This document shows, piece after piece, positions 15,442-31,875 of a stretch of DNA of 31,875 nucleotides (positions within the stretch are counted from its first letter, which is position 1; each line of letters opens with the position of its first letter). The position numbers were made by a program, and so were the translations under genes. The stretch is from a virus: the IMG/VR virus record IMGVR_UViG_3300037245_001097, positions 1 through 31,875 of that record; one strand, 5' to 3'. A model generated the notes under the pieces. That model searched no databases, had not been told where the DNA came from, and saw nothing but the letters and a program-made list of their open reading frames with translations.

Positions 15442-15750
15442 TTAGCAAAGAATCTCTTCATAATCGCGGCGGCTATAGGGCTGAAAAGTATTTGTCGCCC
15501 ATTCGGCGGGCGTAGTGTGCCATGTGGTCGGCGGTAGCTTGCCTGCACCTTTGCAGACCGGACAGATCGCGGCCACGCCGTAAGTCGGCGATACCCATCC
15601 TTTGCCGTCGCATCCGTGGCATACGGGCTCGATATATACGTACCATCTATTGCCGCGTTGGAGCGTGCCGCCGCCTGCGTCCTGATTGATCGAACATATA
15701 TCGCACGCTTCGGTATTAGCCATTGAACAGTTGCAAGAAGTCATATTCAT
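15442..15750 (-). CDS. Cys-rich protein with DnaJ-type zinc-finger motifs
   Basis: The 102-residue protein has CHGCDGKG and, after a spacer, CPVCKGAG. These are paired CxxCxGxG elements as in the DnaJ zinc-binding domain, and the N-terminus carries more Cys (CNC, CDIC). Its start overlaps the stop of the tail-completion gene as ATGA, so it belongs to the structural operon. The zinc fold is well supported. A role as an assembly chaperone or nucleic-acid adaptor is inference. A similar CxxCxGxG pair occurs in the small protein at 30600-30992. Confidence 0.7.
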   Translation of the reverse strand: MNMTSCNCSMANTEACDICSINQDAGGGTLQRGNRWYVYIEPVCHGCDGKGWVSPTYGVAAICPVCKGAGKLPPTTWHTTPAEWATNTFQPYSRRDYEEILC

Positions 15751-18967: not shown

Positions 18968-19762
18968 TTAGTTGATCTGTACCGCGTGAAGCCTGTCGAC
19001 GAGCATCGCGTGTGCCGCAGCCTCGCCGGTCAGGAAATGGACGCTCGGCGTTAGCTCCTCGGCTGTCGGTATTGTCGTCGAATGCGTCGCCACGAGCACG
19101 CCGTCGACGTAGAACTTGATCGATGTATTCGATTCCATCCAAAACCCGAGCGTGATGTTGGTCGCGTCCGCCATCGTGCCCACGGCCAAGCTTTCTTCCT
19201 CGACCGAGTTCGATTCCGAGACGGCCGCAACCGACAGGCTTCCATCGACTTTTCGGTAGTAGATGCCATAGGTCATGCCGCCGAGCAGCGTAGTGTCCGT
19301 AATGCACAAGCCGGCGATGAAGTCGGACTCCGTCGCGTCGTCGATCTGCAACGTGATTTCGAAATACAACGGCTTGCCGGAGGCCGGCAGATACGATTCG
19401 CCGGTGAGCTGTATGTTCTGGCCGTCGTTCTCGGAATCATTGGTCAGGATTTTCCATACACCGCCTGCGGTCGTGCCGAGGCCCGCCGAATCTAGGCCAT
19501 CGACTCCGCCATCGACGAGCGTTGTCGTCCATTCGGTCGGATACGTCGTCACGTCGTCGGTCGGGAGCGATGCGAAGCCCTGTATGTACGAGGTTGTGTC
19601 GACGCCGACGACCTTCAGGACGCGCATTCGATATGGGGCCTGGTAGAACACAAGAGCGCCATTGACCCAATGCGATTCCACGTTGGCGACGGCGGCATCC
19701 GCGATCTGAGCCCCGCCGAATAGGACGGCAAGAATCAGACTTATCAGGATTATTCTTTTCAT
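18968..19762 (-). CDS. Secreted lectin-like protein, paralogue 2
   Basis: The start at 19762 (GGGATG-type site upstream) gives 264 residues beginning with a Sec signal peptide: basic MKR, hydrophobic 4-17, cleavage near ADA (about 23). The mature part starts with the AVANV segment shared with its neighbour, followed by PYRMR, a GVD turn, QGF-SLP and PTEW. Near the C-terminus is FYVDGVLVATH, typical of concanavalin-like (LamG) sandwiches, which bind sugars or surface proteins. The position between capsid and connector genes would normally mean head decoration, but a signal peptide predicts export. A longer frame upstream of 19762 has no support. Confidence 0.65.
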   Translation of the reverse strand: MKRIILISLILAVLFGGAQIADAAVANVESHWVNGALVFYQAPYRMRVLKVVGVDTTSYIQGFASLPTDDVTTYPTEWTTTLVDGGVDGLDSAGLGTTAGGVWKILTNDSENDGQNIQLTGESYLPASGKPLYFEITLQIDDATESDFIAGLCITDTTLLGGMTYGIYYRKVDGSLSVAAVSESNSVEEESLAVGTMADATNITLGFWMESNTSIKFYVDGVLVATHSTTIPTAEELTPSVHFLTGEAAAHAMLVDRLHAVQIN

Positions 19763-19784
19763 TGTCTTGTCACATCCCTTTCTG

Positions 19785-20603
19785 TTAGCGGGGGTGGACC
19801 ACGTTGATCCAGTCGATATTTGCCGTGCGAACGACCGCGTCTCCATTTGTGAATTCGATTGTCGGCGTGATCTCGGTGTCGATGGTGATATTCGCGGCCG
19901 TGGTATGCTGCGCGACCTGTACGCCATCGACCCAGAACGTGACGGTTCCGGCAGTCGCATCGGTAGTCAGCACGCCGTCATAGTAGAATTCGTAGATGTG
20001 GTAGCTCGTATCCATGACCGCCACGTTATCGGTCTGCGTTTCGCCGGTGTCCTCGGTCACGGCAGAAACTCCTGTGCCGGCAGCGAGCTTTTCAAAGTAT
20101 ATGCCATCGGTGATTCCGTCAGACCATAGCGTATCCGTGATGCCCACGCCAATGAATAGCTCGCTTAGTGTGGCATGGGACATCTTGATCTTGATCCCGA
20201 AATAGAGGGATTTGCCATCTTCGCATTTGAACGATTCGCCTTTGAGCTGCATGTTGACGCCGTCATCGTCGTTGCCGGCGTTGGTTATCAGAAATTCGCC
20301 GCCAGCCACGGTAGTGATGACGCCGGTAGTCGTTCCCGCTCCGATTTCGACCGGGCTCCACGTCCATTCGGTCGGGTCGCCGGTCGTATCATCGACGGGG
20401 AGCGACGAGAATCCCTGCGTATATTGGATAGCATCGACGCCGATAACATCGAGCCAGCGCATCCGGTAGGGCATTTGGTAGTAGACCTGCGAGCCGTTGA
20501 TCCAAGTCGAGCCGACGTTTGCGACGGCGGCGGGAGCATCCCCCGGAATTGCGAGGGCGGCGAGCGCGGCAACGAACAGTACGATTACAAATAGCTTCTT
20601 CAT
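19785..20603 (-). CDS. Secreted lectin-like protein, paralogue 1
   Basis: The 272-residue protein has a textbook signal peptide (MKK, hydrophobic 4-18, APA cleavage near 25). It shares with the next gene the order AVANV, W-NG, PYRMR, GVD, QGF-SLP-DD, PTEW, and a late FWVDGVQVAQHT strand. The fold suggested is a concanavalin-like beta-sandwich. Cysteines near residues 123 and elsewhere are few. The gene follows a strong hairpin (20630-20663), which may set its mRNA level apart from the capsid transcript. Both paralogues may be exported surface or released proteins, or virion proteins with an unusual leader. Confidence 0.65.
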   Translation of the reverse strand: MKKLFVIVLFVAALAALAIPGDAPAAVANVGSTWINGSQVYYQMPYRMRWLDVIGVDAIQYTQGFSSLPVDDTTGDPTEWTWSPVEIGAGTTTGVITTVAGGEFLITNAGNDDDGVNMQLKGESFKCEDGKSLYFGIKIKMSHATLSELFIGVGITDTLWSDGITDGIYFEKLAAGTGVSAVTEDTGETQTDNVAVMDTSYHIYEFYYDGVLTTDATAGTVTFWVDGVQVAQHTTAANITIDTEITPTIEFTNGDAVVRTANIDWINVVHPR

Positions 20604-21187: not shown

Positions 21188-22525
21188 TTACGATCTCGTC
21201 TCGAGGGTAATGAACGGGCTCAGTGTGTCTCCGCCGCTCTTGGGCGTGATATCGGAAGTCCACCACGGCTGGCCGTCGACTCGATATGTAAACCGGAAAA
21301 CGGTTTCGCCCGCGACGAACTCGACATGGATGCTGGAGTCGGATTGTATGGCGCCCTTGTCGGCGAGATAATACTGGCTGAAATCGGCGAGGATGATATC
21401 GCCTTCGGTTCCGAGCGCTTGACAATGCTCAACGGGCAGGACCGGACGCCCGAACAGCGAGCCATAGGGAGATACGCTTGCGCCGCCCGGAGGCATATAG
21501 ACCAGCTGCCCGCCGGTGCCGACCGCAAGATTCATCGTGAACAGCTGGGTGGTTATCGACTGATCGATCAGCCATACGGCGTTCGTGTAGCTGCTCGCGA
21601 TCATGCGAGCCCACATGGCTACGATGTTCTCGTAAATGAGCGTCCCGGCAAGCTGGCCGGCTTCCTTGCTCGCTGTGATATTGGACGGAGCGCCGAGAAT
21701 ACCCTGCGGCTTGCCGCTGCCGTCGCCATTCACAATCGCGTCGGCGATCATGAACTGGATCTCCTGCGTCGCCAGCGTCGAAAGCTGCTGATTGAGGACG
21801 CCAACATCTTCCAGCATTTCGTCGGTCGCGTAAATCAGCACGGCCTGCTTGTTGGGCGTGAGTTCGATGCGCTTGTAGCTGGGCTTCGACTTGGTGATGT
21901 CGGCGGCTTCGTCAACCCAGTATCCGAGGACTCCGCCCCGACGTGAACCATCGGCGCGGCTCGTTTCAGAGATGGCGGGGATCTTCATCGTCGACGTGTT
22001 AGCCCCCAATGTAAGGCGCTGGGTCATGCCAGGAATGTTGGACTCCTCAAAGACGACCGACAGGATGTCTTTCGAGAATTCATCCTCTAGCAGCAGCCCA
22101 CCGCCGGACGGTACGGCTTCGCTCAGGCCGGTAGCGGCGGCCCTGAAAAGTCGAGGGTCGGTACCGCGACCGACGGAATGGCGAAATACGGCCATGCACT
22201 GCTCGCCGAGACTCCCGAACATATCCTTCGGGTTGGGCGGTGACTTCTTGGCGTCCGCGATGAACCGGGAAGCGCCGGGGCGGTCGTCGGGATCGGGCCT
22301 ATTGGGCTCGCCGACCGTTGCGTCGAGGCGGGTACGCATTGCATCGCCTTCTTGGTCCAACTGGATGCTCGCTTCGAGTTCTTTGATCTCCTTATATATC
22401 GCCGTGATACGGACTGCATCGTTAGGATAGAGTTCGCGACTCGCGGCAATTGCGGCGTTTCGCAGGTCTTTATCCTCGTTTCGCAGGTCAGTTATCATGT
22501 CCTGTTTTTGGCTAACTGTTTTCAC
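21188..22525 (-). CDS. Major capsid protein, HK97 fold
   Basis: A GTG at 22525 with AAAGGAG eight bases upstream is chosen over an ATG at 22582, which would sit far inside the protease gene. The product has 445 residues. Residues 1-100 are a charged, helical delta domain that acts as scaffold and is normally removed by the protease. The core contains GGGLLLEDEF, an IPAISET strand, the long spine helix and a NGDGSGKPQGIL loop, followed by FGRPVLPVEHC and a FRFTYRVDGQP strand, all as in HK97 capsids. Delta residues 17-54 are copied in another protein of this window (30618-30731). Confidence 0.93.
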   Translation of the reverse strand: MKTVSQKQDMITDLRNEDKDLRNAAIAASRELYPNDAVRITAIYKEIKELEASIQLDQEGDAMRTRLDATVGEPNRPDPDDRPGASRFIADAKKSPPNPKDMFGSLGEQCMAVFRHSVGRGTDPRLFRAAATGLSEAVPSGGGLLLEDEFSKDILSVVFEESNIPGMTQRLTLGANTSTMKIPAISETSRADGSRRGGVLGYWVDEAADITKSKPSYKRIELTPNKQAVLIYATDEMLEDVGVLNQQLSTLATQEIQFMIADAIVNGDGSGKPQGILGAPSNITASKEAGQLAGTLIYENIVAMWARMIASSYTNAVWLIDQSITTQLFTMNLAVGTGGQLVYMPPGGASVSPYGSLFGRPVLPVEHCQALGTEGDIILADFSQYYLADKGAIQSDSSIHVEFVAGETVFRFTYRVDGQPWWTSDITPKSGGDTLSPFITLETRS

Positions 22526-23330
22526 GGGGGATACTCCTTTCTCCGTATGATGTGTCAATTCGTCTCTTGTCTCGGCTTTCAAAGTTGTCGGGATGCAGAG
22601 GTGAGTCTTCCGTCAACGCAACTGCTGGCGGCTCCTGGAGCTTGGGCTCGGGTGGCTCGTCCACTTCGGCGGGCTTGGGCGTCGCCGGTTCTGATATCTT
22701 GTCGGGCGCATTCTGATATTTGAATTTTGACATATCGAAATGCGCTGCGATTTCGAGCGATTCGGTGAGTTGATCGGCGAGGCCGAATACGATAGCATCC
22801 TCGGCCGACATCCACGTTTCGGCGGCCATGAGCGCGACGATCTTTTCCTCGTCCACGGTCGCATGGGTCATGTAGGCTATGACGATTGAGTCATTCACCT
22901 TTTCAAGCGTGTCGGCGACGGCCCGCAGCTCAGAGGCCGGTCCGCACGCGCATGCCCACCCCTCATGAATCATCATCATTGCGTTTTCGGCGATGTTGAT
23001 CTCGTCGCCGGCCATTGCGATGACGGACGCGATAGAGGCGGCGAGCCCGTCGATAGTCACGACGATGCGCGCCTTGTGCTGCTTCAGCACGTTATAGATG
23101 GTATTGCCATCAAAGACATTGCCGCCCGGCGAGTTGATATGGACGGTAATAGTCTCGACGTCGCCGAGCGCGGCGACATCCTTCTGAAACTGCTTGGCGG
23201 TCAAACCTTCGCCGGTCCAGAAGTCTATGCCGATATCGTCATAAATCCAGATTTCGGCCTCTTTCTCGCCCTTGGCCTGTATCCATGTGCGCTTCGGCTC
23301 GTTTTTCGAAAACTGGATTATGTTGGACAT
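22512..23330 (-). CDS. ClpP-like prohead protease
   Basis: The 272-residue protein has the S14 signature: a HINSPGG strand, the nucleophile region GLAASIASVIAMAG with the catalytic Ser in AAS, and MMIHEG with the catalytic His. It would cut the capsid delta domain after assembly. The C-terminal 70 residues are Pro/Glu-rich and probably disordered, perhaps a scaffold-binding tail. Its start shares a base with the portal stop (TAATG) and its end overlaps the capsid start by 14 bases, so portal, protease and capsid form one coupled set. Confidence 0.92.
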   Translation of the reverse strand: MSNIIQFSKNEPKRTWIQAKGEKEAEIWIYDDIGIDFWTGEGLTAKQFQKDVAALGDVETITVHINSPGGNVFDGNTIYNVLKQHKARIVVTIDGLAASIASVIAMAGDEINIAENAMMMIHEGWACACGPASELRAVADTLEKVNDSIVIAYMTHATVDEEKIVALMAAETWMSAEDAIVFGLADQLTESLEIAAHFDMSKFKYQNAPDKISEPATPKPAEVDEPPEPKLQEPPAVALTEDSPLHPDNFESRDKRRIDTSYGERSIPRENS

Positions 23331-25030
23331 TAGGTTTGTCTCCTCGTTGTGGCGCAGGTAAACGTATCGACGGCCTCCGCGAATGCCACGATCTCGCGGT
23401 CCGCAATTTCATCTGGTCGGTTCTGCTCCCATTCGTCCATCAGCGTCGGGATTGCGCCATTGGCGCCGCTTGCTCTAATTTTGGCGCGGGAATCTCTAAC
23501 ATGATTTTCCCCCAGCGTCTCGGCATATACGCGGATGAACTCGGTGGCTCCGGATTGTCCTGATTCGCCCTGTATCGCGCCGGCGTATGCGATCAAGGTT
23601 GGCCGAATAAGATCGGCGACGTATTCCGGGAATGTCTTATAGAATGCGTCGAAGGAGTTGCGCTGCTCCGATAACTTCCGAACACGCTTCGTCTCTTTTT
23701 GCGTGATCCGGTTTGCGACATCGTAAATCAGTGGGCGGAATTGAGCGGCGGCGGCCTCGGCCTGTTCGTCTGGCCCCTCGGTCTGCGGGGCTGGCGCGGC
23801 TGGCGGCGGCGCAGGAAGCTCTTTTGGCGCGCCCGCAACCGCCCAAGTTGAAGGGATGTGGTAGTCGTCGCCGCCCTGCTCTTTGGGGATCGGGTTCATA
23901 TTTTCGAGGCGGCGGACATCGTTTGGCTTTAGCACGCCGATTTCGCTCCCGATTTTATAGGCGCCCCATCGCTCGGTCGGATTGCCTCGGAGTAGCGCAT
24001 CGACGAGATGCTCGAAAAAGAATTTCTTGCGATCTTTGGCGTTAAGAAGCTGGGTATTTAGCGCCTGCTCGATCCTTACGAACCAGGGGAATAGCGTATA
24101 GACTACGAATTCGAGAGATTGCTCAATAATGTTCGTGTAGGTCGCGTGTTCAAGATCACCCGCAAGGTGCGGCGGGATACGATACATGCCGTAGATATCC
24201 TCATCCTGGAATTTCCGCGTTTCGAGGAATTGGGCGTCTTCCGGTGGAATACTAATCGGATTGAATTTCATGCCCTCTTGCAGTACCGCGACCCTATGCG
24301 CGTTGCTTAGGCCGGAATACGCGTCGTTCCAATCGCCCCGCAGGCGTTGTAAAGCCTCCGGGCTGAGGCTTTTGGGATGCTCAAGCACGCCGCCGGGCGT
24401 CGCGTCGTTGGAAAACAGGCGCGCCCCGAATTGCTGCGTCGCCTTGGCGAGCCCGAGCGATTCGCGGTTGTATCCGATAGGAGATAGGCCGGTAACACCA
24501 TTGTAGCTGAGGCCGGGGGTGTGAATCACTTGACCGCGGTGTAGAAAGATCGTTTCGCCGGTAGCAGGCCGGTATTCATAAGCGAGCGGGCCTTTGCCGT
24601 TGTCAGTCCTGAATGGCGTTACTCGATTTGGGAGCAACGGCCATAGCGCCTTGACTATGCCCATTCCGTTCATCTGCTTTTCTGCGTAGTGGTCGCCCCA
24701 TAGCCCGAGATGTATGATTTGGCCCTCGCGGTACTGCATCGAGGACATCTCGGGATTCGGCTGCGTGTGCATGAGGTCATAATAGGGATGGTTGGTGGCC
24801 CTGCTACGCGCGTCGCCATCGCGTTCGTATAGAATAAGCGGTAGAGACGCGATGGATTCGGCGAGGATCTTGATACATTTCCAGATTGCGGGGATTTCGA
24901 GGGCGTTGGCTTCATTTATCGCTAGGCCGGTTGCAGTCGCGCCGACGATGCCCCCATACCAAATATCGTGGCCGGGGGAATGTGCCTGGGGGCGCGTGTC
25001 GGCTTCCATCCTGCGCGTGAGAAGTCCCAT
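23330..25030 (-). CDS. Portal protein, HK97 family
   Basis: The 566-residue protein shows the HK97 portal layout. The early motif with IWKCIKILAESIASLPL leads to the clip and stem region, a long central part with GLSPIGYNR, and QFGARLFSNDATPGGVLEHP. Then come YRIPPHLAG and IEQSLEFVVYTLFPW. Residues about 1-410 cover the standard core. The last 150 residues are an extension with a Pro/Ala-rich linker and then helices, of unknown role. Portals form the dodecameric vertex through which DNA enters. The gene starts one base after the preceding stop and follows the small membrane protein. Confidence 0.92.
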   Translation of the reverse strand: MGLLTRRMEADTRPQAHSPGHDIWYGGIVGATATGLAINEANALEIPAIWKCIKILAESIASLPLILYERDGDARSRATNHPYYDLMHTQPNPEMSSMQYREGQIIHLGLWGDHYAEKQMNGMGIVKALWPLLPNRVTPFRTDNGKGPLAYEYRPATGETIFLHRGQVIHTPGLSYNGVTGLSPIGYNRESLGLAKATQQFGARLFSNDATPGGVLEHPKSLSPEALQRLRGDWNDAYSGLSNAHRVAVLQEGMKFNPISIPPEDAQFLETRKFQDEDIYGMYRIPPHLAGDLEHATYTNIIEQSLEFVVYTLFPWFVRIEQALNTQLLNAKDRKKFFFEHLVDALLRGNPTERWGAYKIGSEIGVLKPNDVRRLENMNPIPKEQGGDDYHIPSTWAVAGAPKELPAPPPAAPAPQTEGPDEQAEAAAAQFRPLIYDVANRITQKETKRVRKLSEQRNSFDAFYKTFPEYVADLIRPTLIAYAGAIQGESGQSGATEFIRVYAETLGENHVRDSRAKIRASGANGAIPTLMDEWEQNRPDEIADREIVAFAEAVDTFTCATTRRQT

Positions 25031-27357: not shown

Positions 27358-29181
27358 TTATCCCAAGACCGTCAGCCCCTGGGATTCGTAGATGCTCGGG
27401 CCTTCCTGTTCGGCCATTGCACGGGCAAGGGCCATGATCGCGGCGACTATACCGTCGATCTTGTTCTCGTCTCGCTCTTTGGATGGGTAGAAAAACTTGG
27501 TCTTTGAGGATTTGAGAATCACGTTCGCGGCCTGCCATGCGAGGGCTGGGTCGCCGTCGTGGAGCAGATTGCCGGACGTGTAGAGCGCTTCGAATTCTTT
27601 CATCGGCTCGGATATATGGGCGGGCGCCTGATTGATCTCGACGCATGGGAACCCGACTATCTCTCGGATTTGCTGCATTAGCATTTCGGCCTCGCGCGGA
27701 TCGTAGGCGAGTTCCTGAATGCGCAGGGCTTTGCGGACTTCCTGCTCGGCGATCTCGGGGTATTCAGGATCAAATGTTGATTCGCATCCGCCCTTTTCTT
27801 TTTCGCAGAGCCAGCCGAGATCGTGCATAGGCGCGAATACGGCCAGTTGACCGCATTCGGGGCATTTGCGAGCGGCGTCCCTATCCCATTCCATAAGGTC
27901 GTCCATGAGGTACCGGTAATCGGTGCGCGCGCCGGGCGTGGATATGAGATGTCCTTCTGCGAGCCAGCGCCGATAGTGATCGTTTTGCGGAAGCTGGATA
28001 GTCTCTTCGGGCAAGTAATATTTGCCGAATATATAGAATGCGTCTTCGCGCCGGAATAGGAACATCATGGCCGTAAGATCGATCTTGGATGCGAGGTCAA
28101 CGCCGATCCAGCATGGTTCGCCCGCGAAATCGCTCATACGGATATCGCGCTTGTTCTTTTTCCATGTGACCATATTGATCCAGGCCGATCCGGCGGCGGC
28201 CCAGATATTGAGGTGCTTGCATTTCAGAATGTTTTGCTGGCTGGCGATTGCGATGGCCTCTTTGCGCGCCGCTTCGAGAAAGTCCTCTTTGACGCTGATG
28301 CCGTAGTTGGGATTAGCCTTCTTCCATGTAGCCTGCTGCGTCCAGTCGTCGCCGTCGTCGATGGTATATATGATTGCGAACAGCTCGTCGTTTTCCATTA
28401 CGCCGGATAGGATTTTTATAGCCTCATCACGCTTGGCGTAGCAGGGCCCTGACGTGTCGATTCCGGCGGTGGTGATGATAATCCGCATGGGTTGGCGGCG
28501 GTTCCCCATGCCGGTCTTCATGGTGTCATACAGGGCTGATGTTTTGTGTTCGTGGTATTCGTCGACGATGGAACAGCTTGCTTTTGCTCCGTCGCCGGGG
28601 TTGCCGATGATGGGCTCGAATTTGCTTGCGTCTTCGAGACACGCGAGGTTTTTGGCGCCGACATAAATACCGAAATGTGTGCGGAATAGCGAATTATTTT
28701 TGACCATGAGGCGCGCAGGCCCGAACACTTCCCACGCCTGCTTTTCAGTCGAGGCGCCCGAATAGACTTCTGCGCCGGGCTCGCCGTCGGCCCACGCCAT
28801 GTAATGGCCGCTAATTGCGGCCATTGTCGATTTGGTATTTACGCGGGGCACCTCTAAATAAAGCTCGCGGAATCGGCGTAGCCCGTCGGCCTTGCGAAGC
28901 CATCCCCATCCGCAGGAATATAAGAATATTTGCCACGGCTCGAGCTTGATCTTCGTCCCCGACCATTCGCCTTTAACATGCACCATGTTTTCGGCGAACC
29001 GGCACATCTTGGCGGCGGCATCCTTGTCGAAGCGGTAGGGGTAGTCCGCGGCCTTAGATGCCTCGAGATCGTCGAGGTGGCGCTGGCACGCCTGACGCAC
29101 GTAGAGACATGCGTCGGTTTTGCCGGATATGACTGACCGGGCGTATCTGTTGGCGCGCGCTGCGTAGCTAGGAGCGGTCAT
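27358..29181 (-). CDS. terL: Large terminase subunit with an inserted zinc ribbon
   Basis: The 607-residue protein is a Terminase_1 (HK97-type) motor. A Walker-A-like EVPRVNTKST lies at 110-119 and a Walker B SIVDEYH at 204-210 (Asp207, Glu208), with a coupling-type motif IIITTAG at 234-240. The nuclease has Asp362 in GVDLAS, Asp494 in AYDPREAE and Asp576 in KIDGIVA. Between nuclease strands at 440-466 sits CPEC ... C ... C, a zinc ribbon insert that most family members lack. The start at 29181 is preceded by AAGGA at a long distance. The first codons recur upstream of the next gene (29537-29553). No small terminase is recognisable. Confidence 0.93.
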   Translation of the reverse strand: MTAPSYAARANRYARSVISGKTDACLYVRQACQRHLDDLEASKAADYPYRFDKDAAAKMCRFAENMVHVKGEWSGTKIKLEPWQIFLYSCGWGWLRKADGLRRFRELYLEVPRVNTKSTMAAISGHYMAWADGEPGAEVYSGASTEKQAWEVFGPARLMVKNNSLFRTHFGIYVGAKNLACLEDASKFEPIIGNPGDGAKASCSIVDEYHEHKTSALYDTMKTGMGNRRQPMRIIITTAGIDTSGPCYAKRDEAIKILSGVMENDELFAIIYTIDDGDDWTQQATWKKANPNYGISVKEDFLEAARKEAIAIASQQNILKCKHLNIWAAAGSAWINMVTWKKNKRDIRMSDFAGEPCWIGVDLASKIDLTAMMFLFRREDAFYIFGKYYLPEETIQLPQNDHYRRWLAEGHLISTPGARTDYRYLMDDLMEWDRDAARKCPECGQLAVFAPMHDLGWLCEKEKGGCESTFDPEYPEIAEQEVRKALRIQELAYDPREAEMLMQQIREIVGFPCVEINQAPAHISEPMKEFEALYTSGNLLHDGDPALAWQAANVILKSSKTKFFYPSKERDENKIDGIVAAIMALARAMAEQEGPSIYESQGLTVLG

Positions 29182-29574
29182 TTCTTTTCGAAGTCCTTAC
29201 AGTTGACGGGTTATTGGGCATTCGGTCGTTCCGAATCACAAAAGTTCGTGCAGTTGGCAAACATTAATGACCATGCCATCCTCGTACCAATCTTCGCCCC
29301 GGCCTTGGCAGTACGCTTTATCTTCGGAGTGCGGGCGGAGCACGAGGTCCATCCCTGGTAGCGGCAATGTGCCTCCGTCAATAATAACCAGAATTGAGAA
29401 GGCGAGGCCGTCACATCTTTCTTTGGCGGATAACTCTTGCGGTAAACTCCAATATTCTGCCGCCCCTCTTATTTGGTTCATAAACTCAGCCCTTACCTGC
29501 TCGACCGTTTTAGCCTCTGGCATGATTCGCCCTCCTTTGGCGCGCGCTGCGTATGATTGTTTATTGGGCATTCG
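29150..29574. repeat. Split direct repeat flanking a small gene before terL
   Basis: A 17-base sequence (TTGGCGCGCGCTGCGTA) is present at 29150-29166 and 29537-29553. A 14-base sequence (TTATTGGGCATTCG) is present at 29211-29224 and 29561-29574, in the same order. The gap between the two is 44 bases in the left copy and 7 in the right. The left copy covers the terL start. The right copy reads SYAARA in another frame, the start of TerL. The 95-residue gene lies between. Confidence 0.9.
29236..29523 (-). CDS. Small protein inserted next to terL, unknown function
   Basis: The start at 29523 has GGAGG eight bases upstream and gives 95 residues; a longer frame from 29571 reads through the duplicated terL start and is rejected. 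The sequence begins with a helix (AKTVEQVRAEFMNQIRGAAEYW). Then comes a CDGLAFSILVIIDGG strand-turn and PGMDLVLRPHSEDKAYC. The last motif suggests a small alpha/beta fold as in other phage accessory proteins. The flanking repeats mark it as a likely insertion. Function unknown. Confidence 0.6.
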   Translation of the reverse strand: MPEAKTVEQVRAEFMNQIRGAAEYWSLPQELSAKERCDGLAFSILVIIDGGTLPLPGMDLVLRPHSEDKAYCQGRGEDWYEDGMVINVCQLHELL

Positions 29575-30190
29575 CTGGCTTCTGCCTGTGGGCCTTTTCG
29601 ATTGCCCGGATCATCGGCTCGTTATATCTGCACGTTGGGCAGTTTGAATCGGGGCAGCTACGGTGTCTGCTGACAAGGTCGATTTCCTCAAGGTATCTTT
29701 CGTATGCGGCGGCCTGCTCGATGGCGTCGTGGATAGGGCCGAGGAGCGCGTCGCTCACGCGGGGGTCTACAAGGTTATAGGCGTGGTTGCAGTCGTCGCA
29801 GATGGCGATCTCTTGGCCAGCCATGTTGAAGTGATTGAGATTGGCGCGGTGGTCGGCGTCTTCGGCCTGGTAGTCGGTTCCACATTTGAGGCATCTGTCG
29901 TGTGGGTCATCCCTGGGCTCGCGTTCGTCGGCTTGTTCCACTGTTCCGTCCGCTGTGATTATGACGCCCTCCATACCTTTGCCTTTGCCCGGTATCATTT
30001 TACCGATTGCAGCCAGTATACGCTTGACGGTTCCCTTTTTCGCGGCGAAGTATTCGCAGTCGACTCCGATTTTGCGGACTAAGCCAATAATGAGGCCGCA
30101 GCCTTCGTGGCCAGTCCAAGGAGAAATATAATGCAAACATTCCGTGCAGCTTGCGACCTCCATCGGGAACTCATTCCATATGTCGCTCAT
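29561..30190 (-). CDS. Multi-zinc-finger protein upstream of terL
   Basis: The 209-residue protein has several Cys pairs: CTEC near 15-18, a CLKC near 99, CDDC with His nearby, and the cluster CPDSNCPTC near 185. A basic middle part (KKGTVKRILAAIGKM) separates the first from the rest. Several zinc sites without catalytic motifs suggest a nucleic-acid or protein adaptor. Its position would suit a terminase partner, but there is no helix-turn-helix signature. The start overlaps the previous stop as ATGA. Its last codons sit in one of the repeats described at 29150-29574. Confidence 0.55.
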   Translation of the reverse strand: MSDIWNEFPMEVASCTECLHYISPWTGHEGCGLIIGLVRKIGVDCEYFAAKKGTVKRILAAIGKMIPGKGKGMEGVIITADGTVEQADEREPRDDPHDRCLKCGTDYQAEDADHRANLNHFNMAGQEIAICDDCNHAYNLVDPRVSDALLGPIHDAIEQAAAYERYLEEIDLVSRHRSCPDSNCPTCRYNEPMIRAIEKAHRQKPANAQ

Positions 30191-30603
30191 GAGTCACTCT
30201 CCTTTTGCCGGTAGAAGCGGTCGGCACGCGCTCGCCGATCCTCAGCCGACGTCTCCATCATCATACTGTCTACGGCCCTATTGCCGGCCTCGCACGCCCC
30301 TTTAAGAATATCATTGTCCGTCACGGGCTTTGCCTTGGGCTTGCGCGACCTCTTGAGCTTGACGACGTGGAGCACGCCGGGGCCACGCTGCTTTTTGATA
30401 AGCCGGAACACGCCTTCAGGGCCATCCTCGTAGGGGGTGACGCATACGCTCGTTACGACGCGCTCGAGCCTATCGAGACCCCCCTCGTCGATCTCAATGC
30501 TACATCCTTGGGTTTGAATGACGATTCGGCCTAGCGATATTCCTACTACTCGCGGGGAGTTCCCCCAGTGGAAATAGCGTTTCAAGCGGTCAAATAGTCT
30601 CAT
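30187..30603 (-). CDS. Small basic protein of unknown function
   Basis: This 138-residue protein is rich in Arg and Lys, with two strand segments (VVGISLGRIVIQTQG, VFRLIKKQRGPG) and a C-terminal helix with Arg/Asp pairs. Its start overlaps the zinc-finger gene upstream (ATGA), and its stop overlaps the next start (ATGA), so the three are translated as a chain. The fold appears small and alpha/beta. No family was recognised. Confidence 0.55.
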   Translation of the reverse strand: MRLFDRLKRYFHWGNSPRVVGISLGRIVIQTQGCSIEIDEGGLDRLERVVTSVCVTPYEDGPEGVFRLIKKQRGPGVLHVVKLKRSRKPKAKPVTDNDILKGACEAGNRAVDSMMMETSAEDRRARADRFYRQKESDS

Positions 30604-30992
30604 GCTGGGTTCCTTTCTATTTTGGCTTCGAGCTTTTCGATTTCATTGTGGATCGCCCGGAGACGAGACATCTCGATCATTGAAAGCTCGCGTTTCATAT
30701 CCCTGGCCGCGTTTCTCAGGTCGGTGTCTTCGTCGATCAGTTTAACGAGTCGCACTTGCATTCCGGGTGCCGCTCGACTTCTCCAATTACTGCTGGCCAC
30801 CGTTCCATTATTCGGGATTTGCAAAGCGGCCCGAGTCAACTCTGCGACCTGCGCCCTGAGCCGAAGCACTTCGGCGGACGGCTTGGCGAAGGAAATCACG
30901 ATCATGCCGCGCCCATCGCATTCCTCGCAATCGCCGCAAGCATCGATCATGCCGGTACCATTGCAATATTTACACGGTGCTATCGGTATCAT
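30600..30992 (-). CDS. DnaJ-type zinc-finger protein with a capsid delta-domain copy
   Basis: The 130-residue protein has two parts. At the N-terminus CKYCNGTG (7-14) and CEECDGRG (22-29) form a paired CxxCxGxG zinc site, as in DnaJ. At the C-terminus residues 88-125 align without gaps to residues 17-54 of the major capsid protein at 20 of 38 positions, mostly in charged helix positions. The middle is a linker. It is likely a zinc adaptor that mimics or binds the capsid scaffold region. It could regulate assembly or protease action; this is inference from the duplication. The start is behind GGGAGGGG and its stop overlaps the next gene. Confidence 0.65.
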   Translation of the reverse strand: MIPIAPCKYCNGTGMIDACGDCEECDGRGMIVISFAKPSAEVLRLRAQVAELTRAALQIPNNGTVASSNWRSRAAPGMQVRLVKLIDEDTDLRNAARDMKRELSMIEMSRLRAIHNEIEKLEAKIERNPA

Positions 30993-31045
30993 GTGCCCCT
31001 CCCTGGTATACCCGTAACGCGCAAATCCTCAGAAACTTGTGCCTT

Positions 31046-31276
31046 TCATTTCTTAGTCTTGACTTTCTTAATAACGAGTTCCCTGCCATCCTCTAGTCGG
31101 ATTACGCCATTCATCTTATTGTGTCCACAACAGGACATAGTAGTGATAATGTTTGCTGCGACGAGCGCTGTGACTAAATCTGCGATACAATAATCTATGT
31201 CCTGCCTGCGACCTGCGATTGGCATGGGTGTTTGGCATTCATAGGTGCCAAGTTTACAACACTTCATGTTATTCAT
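31046..31276 (-). CDS. Small protein with SCCGH motif
   Basis: The 76-residue protein has an N-terminal Cys-containing start (MKCCKLG), a helix and the motif SCCGHNK followed by VIRLEDGRELVI. Many phages encode short proteins with this layout near DNA-processing genes, function unknown. The Cys-Cys-His group could bind metal. The start at 31276 has AAGGAGG eleven bases upstream. An in-frame ATG nine bases later is an alternative. Confidence 0.6.
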   Translation of the reverse strand: MNNMKCCKLGTYECQTPMPIAGRRQDIDYCIADLVTALVAANIITTMSCCGHNKMNGVIRLEDGRELVIKKVKTKK

Positions 31277-31292
31277 TTGTCAGCATGCCTCC

Positions 31293-31577
31293 TTATGCTC
31301 CAGACGGCGGTATGCCAGCCAAGCGCAAGTCCTCGTTGACGCCGGAATCGCGGACGCAGATCGCATACTGGCCGGGCGTGTGCTCCATGACGAGTTCCAG
31401 TTGTTCCTTCGAGTCCATGCCGCTTACGGCCATGTATACGTGAGAGAATATTTCTTTCCTGTTCATAAATGGGACCGTTGCGCGTGCGAGTTCGTCCAGC
31501 CGGGTCAAGCTCAGGTGGTCGAGGACTGCGGCGAAATCCTCGTCGGCTCTGGCTTCTGCTGCGTAATCGTCAGTCAT
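31293..31577 (-). CDS. Small acidic protein of unknown function
   Basis: The 94-residue protein has an acidic helical N-terminus (TDDYAAEARADEDF), then helices with LARATVPFMNRKEIF and a short C-terminal strand (QYAICVRDSGV). AAAGGAGG lies six bases before the start, a strong site. No known family, signal or metal site was recognised. Confidence 0.6.
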   Translation of the reverse strand: MTDDYAAEARADEDFAAVLDHLSLTRLDELARATVPFMNRKEIFSHVYMAVSGMDSKEQLELVMEHTPGQYAICVRDSGVNEDLRLAGIPPSGA

Positions 31578-31590
31578 GTCAGGCCTCCTT

Positions 31591-31851
31591 TCAATAATTC
31601 TGCATCAGATCGTAAAGGTATACCCGATATTCTTTATCTGTCTCCACGTTTCGCACGCGGCAACTGTGATCGTGATGCCATGTGCTCCCCCAATCAAGTA
31701 TCTGCACTTCTCTGGCCCCGCGCCCCTTATAGAAAAAGGCGGAAGTGCCTACTGGGAACGCGTGGGCGGCGGTTTTGCCGATCTCTTCATTGAGTGCCTC
31801 CCTTTGGTCGAGCAATTCTCTGACCTTCGCCATCACCTCTATCCTCGTCAT
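31591..31851 (-). CDS. Small protein at the right edge, unknown function
   Basis: The 86-residue product starts behind GGGGAG. A helix with REALNEEIGK is followed by a strand-rich half (VGTSAFFYKG, AREVQILDWGSTW) with a possible HHDH metal cluster. The first gene in reading order here, it is likely part of the same operon that continues to the right outside the window. No operon promoter is visible to the right. Function unknown. Confidence 0.55.
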   Translation of the reverse strand: MTRIEVMAKVRELLDQREALNEEIGKTAAHAFPVGTSAFFYKGRGAREVQILDWGSTWHHDHSCRVRNVETDKEYRVYLYDLMQNY

Positions 31852-31875
31852 CGTTCAACTCCCCTTTTCTGAATG

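Follow-up and report, generated by a model that had tools for sequence, protein, structure and literature searches.

The scaffold of HK97-like phages is built into the shell protein, which makes it hard to study or use alone. In HK97, the delta domain of the major capsid protein (MCP; mcpN residues 2-66) assembles into trimeric coiled coils that surround the portal and bind both it and each other, while delta residues 76-103 dock under the capsomers, at the capsomer floor (PMC10275583). SaPIbov5 encodes Ccm, a homologue of capsid proteins that has its own delta domain and redirects the assembly of phi12 (PMC8569155). CpmB of SaPI1 shares the capsid protein (CP)-binding motif of the scaffold (PMC6893505), and the internal proteins of T4 reach the scaffold core by means of a capsid-targeting sequence (PMC3012670).

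Here we describe Z, a 130-residue protein encoded in a viral DNA stretch of 31,875 nucleotides, the whole of which we refer to as the window. Z resembles the delta domain of HK97-type MCPs in sequence homology, in its helix boundaries, and in an R-x-L-T/S-x-x-E turn. It differs in that its hairpin is C-terminal, covers only the first ~52 residues of the domain, and comes without the docking part or the shell domain; it does not occupy the position of an HK97 delta, which is N-terminal to and fused with the shell. Like Ccm, Z is a second delta-domain protein besides the MCP and is likely derived from an MCP. Yet Ccm retains the whole HK97 shell fold together with its delta domain, forms pentamers, and is satellite encoded, whereas Z, at 130 residues, is a hairpin plus a zinc module with no shell fold. 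The window in which Z lies has terL, portal, protease, MCP, and further genes in an order common to L085, its closest relative.

CpmB is also a small helical protein bearing the recognition part of a scaffold, but it mimics a separate scaffolding protein by means of a short C-terminal motif, is satellite encoded, and lacks a zinc module. The internal proteins of T4 are comparable with Z in the role proposed below, since a short tag directs a non-shell protein to the scaffold core. To our knowledge, that tag does not originate in an MCP scaffold domain. Small phage proteins with DnaJ-like CXXCXGXG motifs (phrog_8027; in the window, a second such protein at 15442-15750 on the minus strand, phrog_9961 and phrog_3931) share the N-terminal zinc pair with Z but have no delta hairpin, and zinc pair and hairpin occurred together in none of the loci searched. 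In the open-licence literature we found no description of a delta hairpin on a separate non-shell phage protein.

Genetic context and architecture of Z

The following features are used throughout.

21188..22525, minus strand: MCP, 445 residues, HK97 fold (PF05065, E 3e-41)
22358..22513, minus strand: N-terminal delta (scaffold) hairpin, MCP residues 5-56 (helices 4-27 and 34-69), homologous to Z residues 76-127
22512..23330, minus strand: ClpP-like (S14) head maturation protease, upstream of the MCP (PF00574, E 8.9e-31; phrog_94)
23330..25030, minus strand: portal protein (PF04860, E 3.8e-108)
27358..29181, minus strand: terminase large subunit (terL), downstream of Z and in the same direction (PF20441, PF03354)
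30187..30603, minus strand: 138-residue protein of unassigned function, its start overlapping the stop of Z
30600..30992, minus strand: Z, 130 residues (DnaJ-like zinc pair, middle helix, delta-domain hairpin)
30906..30974, minus strand: two CXXCXGXG motifs, Z residues 7-29, visible in the sequence (PF00684, E 0.0015)
30612..30767, minus strand: delta-like helical hairpin, Z residues 76-127 (helices 76-98 and 105-127, pLDDT about 96-98)
30618..30731, minus strand: Z residues 88-125, matching MCP residues 17-54 (20 of 38 identical)

The MCP starts at a GTG codon at 22525, preceded by GGAGAAAGGAG, and the ClpP-like protease encoded upstream is expected to be the remover of its delta domains. Within the MCP delta domain, an exact 13-nt direct repeat (22456-22489) with a spacing of 21 nt, or one heptad, encodes DLRNEDK-DLRNAAI and represents a local heptad duplication in the scaffold helix. 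Downstream of the MCP, two neighboring minus-strand genes (18968-19960 and 19785-20603) both match a single L085 gene, at 45% and 43%, a pattern suggestive of tandem duplication of an accessory gene for the head or tail.

The ATG of Z is preceded by a strong Shine-Dalgarno sequence, GGGAGGGG, and the gene sits within a tight minus-strand run that leads into terL, as the sequence-only reading of the window had placed it. The stop codon of Z and the start codon of the gene that follows overlap in an ATGA, and Z and the 138-residue protein are likely to be translationally coupled. From the end of the window toward terL (27358-31875), Z is followed by genes of 138, 209, and 111 residues, all of unassigned function. 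No match to the P27-type small terminase family (PF05119) was found for Z or anywhere else in the window, and Z was rejected as a P27 small terminase, although L085 and the three other relatives examined all have the family. Its replacement may be encoded by one of the genes in this run or beyond the end of the fragment.

At its N terminus, Z carries the motifs CKYCNGTG (residues 7-14) and CEECDGRG (residues 22-29), which would be expected to form one DnaJ-type zinc site. Against the Pfam DnaJ central zinc domain (PF00684), Z scores 19.2 bits, below the cutoff of 32.7, and it has two motifs rather than the four required; we therefore speak of a DnaJ-like zinc pair and not of a DnaJ domain. The sequence-only reading is supported in that a relative of the delta domain is joined to a DnaJ-like zinc module. 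The C-terminal hairpin turns at R101-x-L-S-x-x-E107. Since Z has no match to the shell-domain profile PF05065, it is a relative of the delta domain rather than an MCP. Pfam matches to Csm2 and DUF3972 fell under the cutoff and were taken as generic helices.

Homology of the Z hairpin with the MCP delta domain

Z residues 88-125 (30618-30731, minus strand) align without gaps to MCP residues 17-54 (22364-22477, minus strand), with 20 identities in 38 positions; the sequence-only reading had reported precisely this match, and every figure was reproduced. It had also asked for an alignment with shuffled controls, and the match between Z and the MCP lies above all of them. The Smith-Waterman score of 89 was reached by none of 20,000 plain shuffles (highest score, 65) and by none of 5,000 shuffles that kept the pattern of residue classes (highest score, 75). 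When core (a/d) and other positions of the coiled coil were shuffled separately, 200,000 trials gave a mean of 5.4 identities and a maximum of 15, against the 20 observed, 12 of which fall outside the core. The fairest control for Z is offered by other phages' delta domains, which have the same fold. In a comparison with 58 MCP delta domains, the window's own MCP shares 20 residues with Z and that of L085 shares 18, while the others share at most 13 (median, 8).

Evidence that bypasses the window's MCP points the same way. From relatives gathered in IMG/VR (80 by terL and about 80 by MCP), we built a delta-domain profile from 57 nonredundant MCPs of other phages, excluding that of the window, and used it to search 161 sequences, or 30,967 frames. 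Z was the top non-MCP frame (21.5 bits, E 3e-4); the nearest to it was a truncated MCP fragment (L022), and the next non-MCP frame reached 10.1 bits (E 1.1). An earlier profile, from a more distant terL-derived set, likewise placed Z over all non-MCP frames except that MCP fragment. A plain BLAST of Z against the collected frames gave two significant matches, to the MCP N terminus of L085 (43% of 49 residues, 1e-6) and to L087 (40% of 50, 5e-4), with weaker matches to the MCP N termini of L108, L150, and L151. In a maximum-likelihood tree, Z, the window MCP, and the L085 MCP group together with support of 97/96; the alignment is short and leaves the order within the trio open.

AlphaFold models of the single chains place the hairpin helices at equivalent boundaries (Z 76-98 and 105-127; MCP 4-27 and 34-69), at an offset of 71 residues. 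This agreement supports homology, though not fully independently, because the alignment used for Z held MCP fragments. Overall, the models and the sequence comparisons make it well supported that the C-terminal hairpin of Z shares ancestry with the MCP delta domain of the lineage of the window and L085.

A chance convergence of two amphipathic helical hairpins is almost excluded. Both hairpins do have hydrophobic seams, and structure searches with the Z model returned only generic helical hairpins, none with an E value under 0.001. Yet shuffles that preserve the register never exceeded 15 identities, foreign delta domains of the same fold share a median of 8 residues with Z, and the independent profile and the tree tie Z to MCPs. 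The MCPs of other phages recognize Z independently, by profile and by BLAST.

Age of the copy and constraint on Z

The two coding stretches had been described as still visibly alike at the DNA level, with the implication of a recent copy. The likeness holds, at 69 of 114 nucleotides over Z 88-125 and MCP 17-54, but recency does not. Synonymous sites in this stretch are saturated (pS 0.74; pN 0.30), and among the 20 identical residues 9 use identical codons, against 7.6 ± 2.1 expected from the codon use of the phage. The DNA likeness is therefore a by-product of protein likeness. Saturation likewise rules out a recent duplication or gene conversion. Z, the window MCP, and the L085 MCP are roughly equidistant (22, 20, and 21 of 50), and alignment scores put Z as near to the MCP of L085 (102) as to that of the window (89). 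Saturated synonymous sites and equal closeness to L085 together indicate that Z did not arise recently from the present MCP. The split between Z and the MCP is old: it has about the age of the split between the window and L085 MCPs, or the copy was taken from a third relative. An assembly artifact is unlikely, as most codons differ between the copies and neither reading frame is interrupted.

Z might also be a recombination relic, in which delta-coding DNA became fused to the gene for a zinc protein and has persisted without a selected function. We regard this as quite improbable. Z is known from a single genome, as a relic could be; however, the retention of the protein pattern at saturated synonymous sites (pN/pS about 0.4), the intact frame, good ribosome-binding site, and overlapping downstream start speak for selection. 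The Z protein has been conserved while its synonymous sites became saturated. In this regard, the turn motif R-x-L-S/T-x-x-E, shown by most MCP delta domains and near-invariant outside this MCP, is present in Z as RELSMIE, whereas the window's MCP has RELYPND (residues 30-36, 22418-22438). Since Z retains a turn that its own MCP has changed, it appears to be constrained on its own account.

Distribution among related phages

L085 is syntenic with the window across the head and tail genes. Z is absent from its 46-kb record, which matches Z in the MCP alone. When whole records of relatives were searched with Z or its hairpin, only the MCPs of L085 and L087 were recovered, plus weak matches elsewhere; the window and many of these records are fragments. 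Of two profile scans for relatives of Z, one returned nothing and the other the L085 MCP only, and tblastn of the hairpin against 50,697 phage records gave no match. No whole-length relative of Z appeared in the viral and genome contigs of IMG/VR and GTDB, where the scans use short exact peptide patterns that can miss distant relatives. The family phrog_31949 (E 0.0016 to the hairpin) was considered as a free-standing delta-like family and rejected, as its only other hit in 32 records was an implausible short frame in the record of L005.

Within the searches made, Z has so far been seen in one phage. With no second Z found, there is no conservation of the pairing between Z and the MCP to cite. 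The sequence-only reading had held that absence of the pairing from related phages would mean convergence. Related phages do lack Z, but that conclusion does not follow here, since convergence is still excluded by the profile and BLAST matches to foreign MCPs.

Possible roles of Z

The sequence-only reading had suggested that Z could join or limit prohead assembly, feed the protease, or act as an anti-assembly factor. The part of the delta domain present in Z is the counterpart of the tower part of HK97 (residues 2-66), and the capsomer-docking part (residues 76-103 in HK97) is not in Z. A protein with the tower part and without the docking part should be able to join delta bundles but not to hold an MCP subunit alone. 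We therefore favor, at a probability of roughly 40%, the reading that Z enters these bundles during prohead assembly, as a tag or partner, and that the protease clears it afterward; Ccm, CpmB, and the capsid-targeting sequence of T4 are precedents. The hairpin of Z would still pair with the delta coiled coils of the MCP, or with their portal-contact site, while the prohead forms; acting as a tag, it would deliver the zinc module to the interior or the edge of the scaffold core, and the ClpP-like prohead protease would then remove Z. A fuller and slightly more tentative form of this reading is that the phage's own MCP scaffold domain became a detachable capsid-targeting tag on a zinc protein, so that coiled coils between delta domains may draw a protein that is not part of the shell into the prohead, probably at the portal vertex, or may tune assembly.

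In the main alternative, the delta hairpin could be a captured oligomerization module, with Z acting as a dimer or trimer in a nucleic-acid- or host-directed zinc task and now unrelated to proheads. Zinc pairs of the DnaJ type are seen repeatedly among small proteins of phages, such as that at 15442-15750, the neighbors of Z are small genes of unassigned function, and the closest relative, L085, manages without Z. On the other hand, the 12 of 20 MCP identities outside the coiled-coil core exceed what a mere oligomerizer would need, and we consider this explanation unlikely.

An effect on assembly in the opposite sense is also conceivable, with Z poisoning or capping delta bundles, either to delay assembly or to spoil the proheads of a competing related phage or satellite. 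There are precedents: Ccm brings its own delta domain to the redirection of phi12 assembly (PMC8569155), and CpmB, through the C-terminal CP-binding motif that it shares with the scaffold, is thought to compete with it (PMC6893505). The presence of the tower part without a shell domain would also suit such a factor. Both precedents are satellite proteins, however, whereas the phage of the window has its own terL, portal, protease, MCP, and structural genes common to L085, and there is no sign of dose or timing control. An anti-assembly or size-limiting role is therefore distinctly unlikely.

We regard Z as an accessory protein derived from a scaffold, set apart by its zinc module and by being encoded by the phage itself. 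If the targeting-tag reading is true, Z would be a self-encoded counterpart, within a phage genome, of the assembly piracy that satellites practice with Ccm and CpmB. A natural protein with the tower part only would reveal which part of the delta domain suffices for entry into the prohead, and Z could mark a cargo route to the portal vertex. Z would also illustrate how separate scaffolding or cargo proteins originate from a fused scaffold domain.
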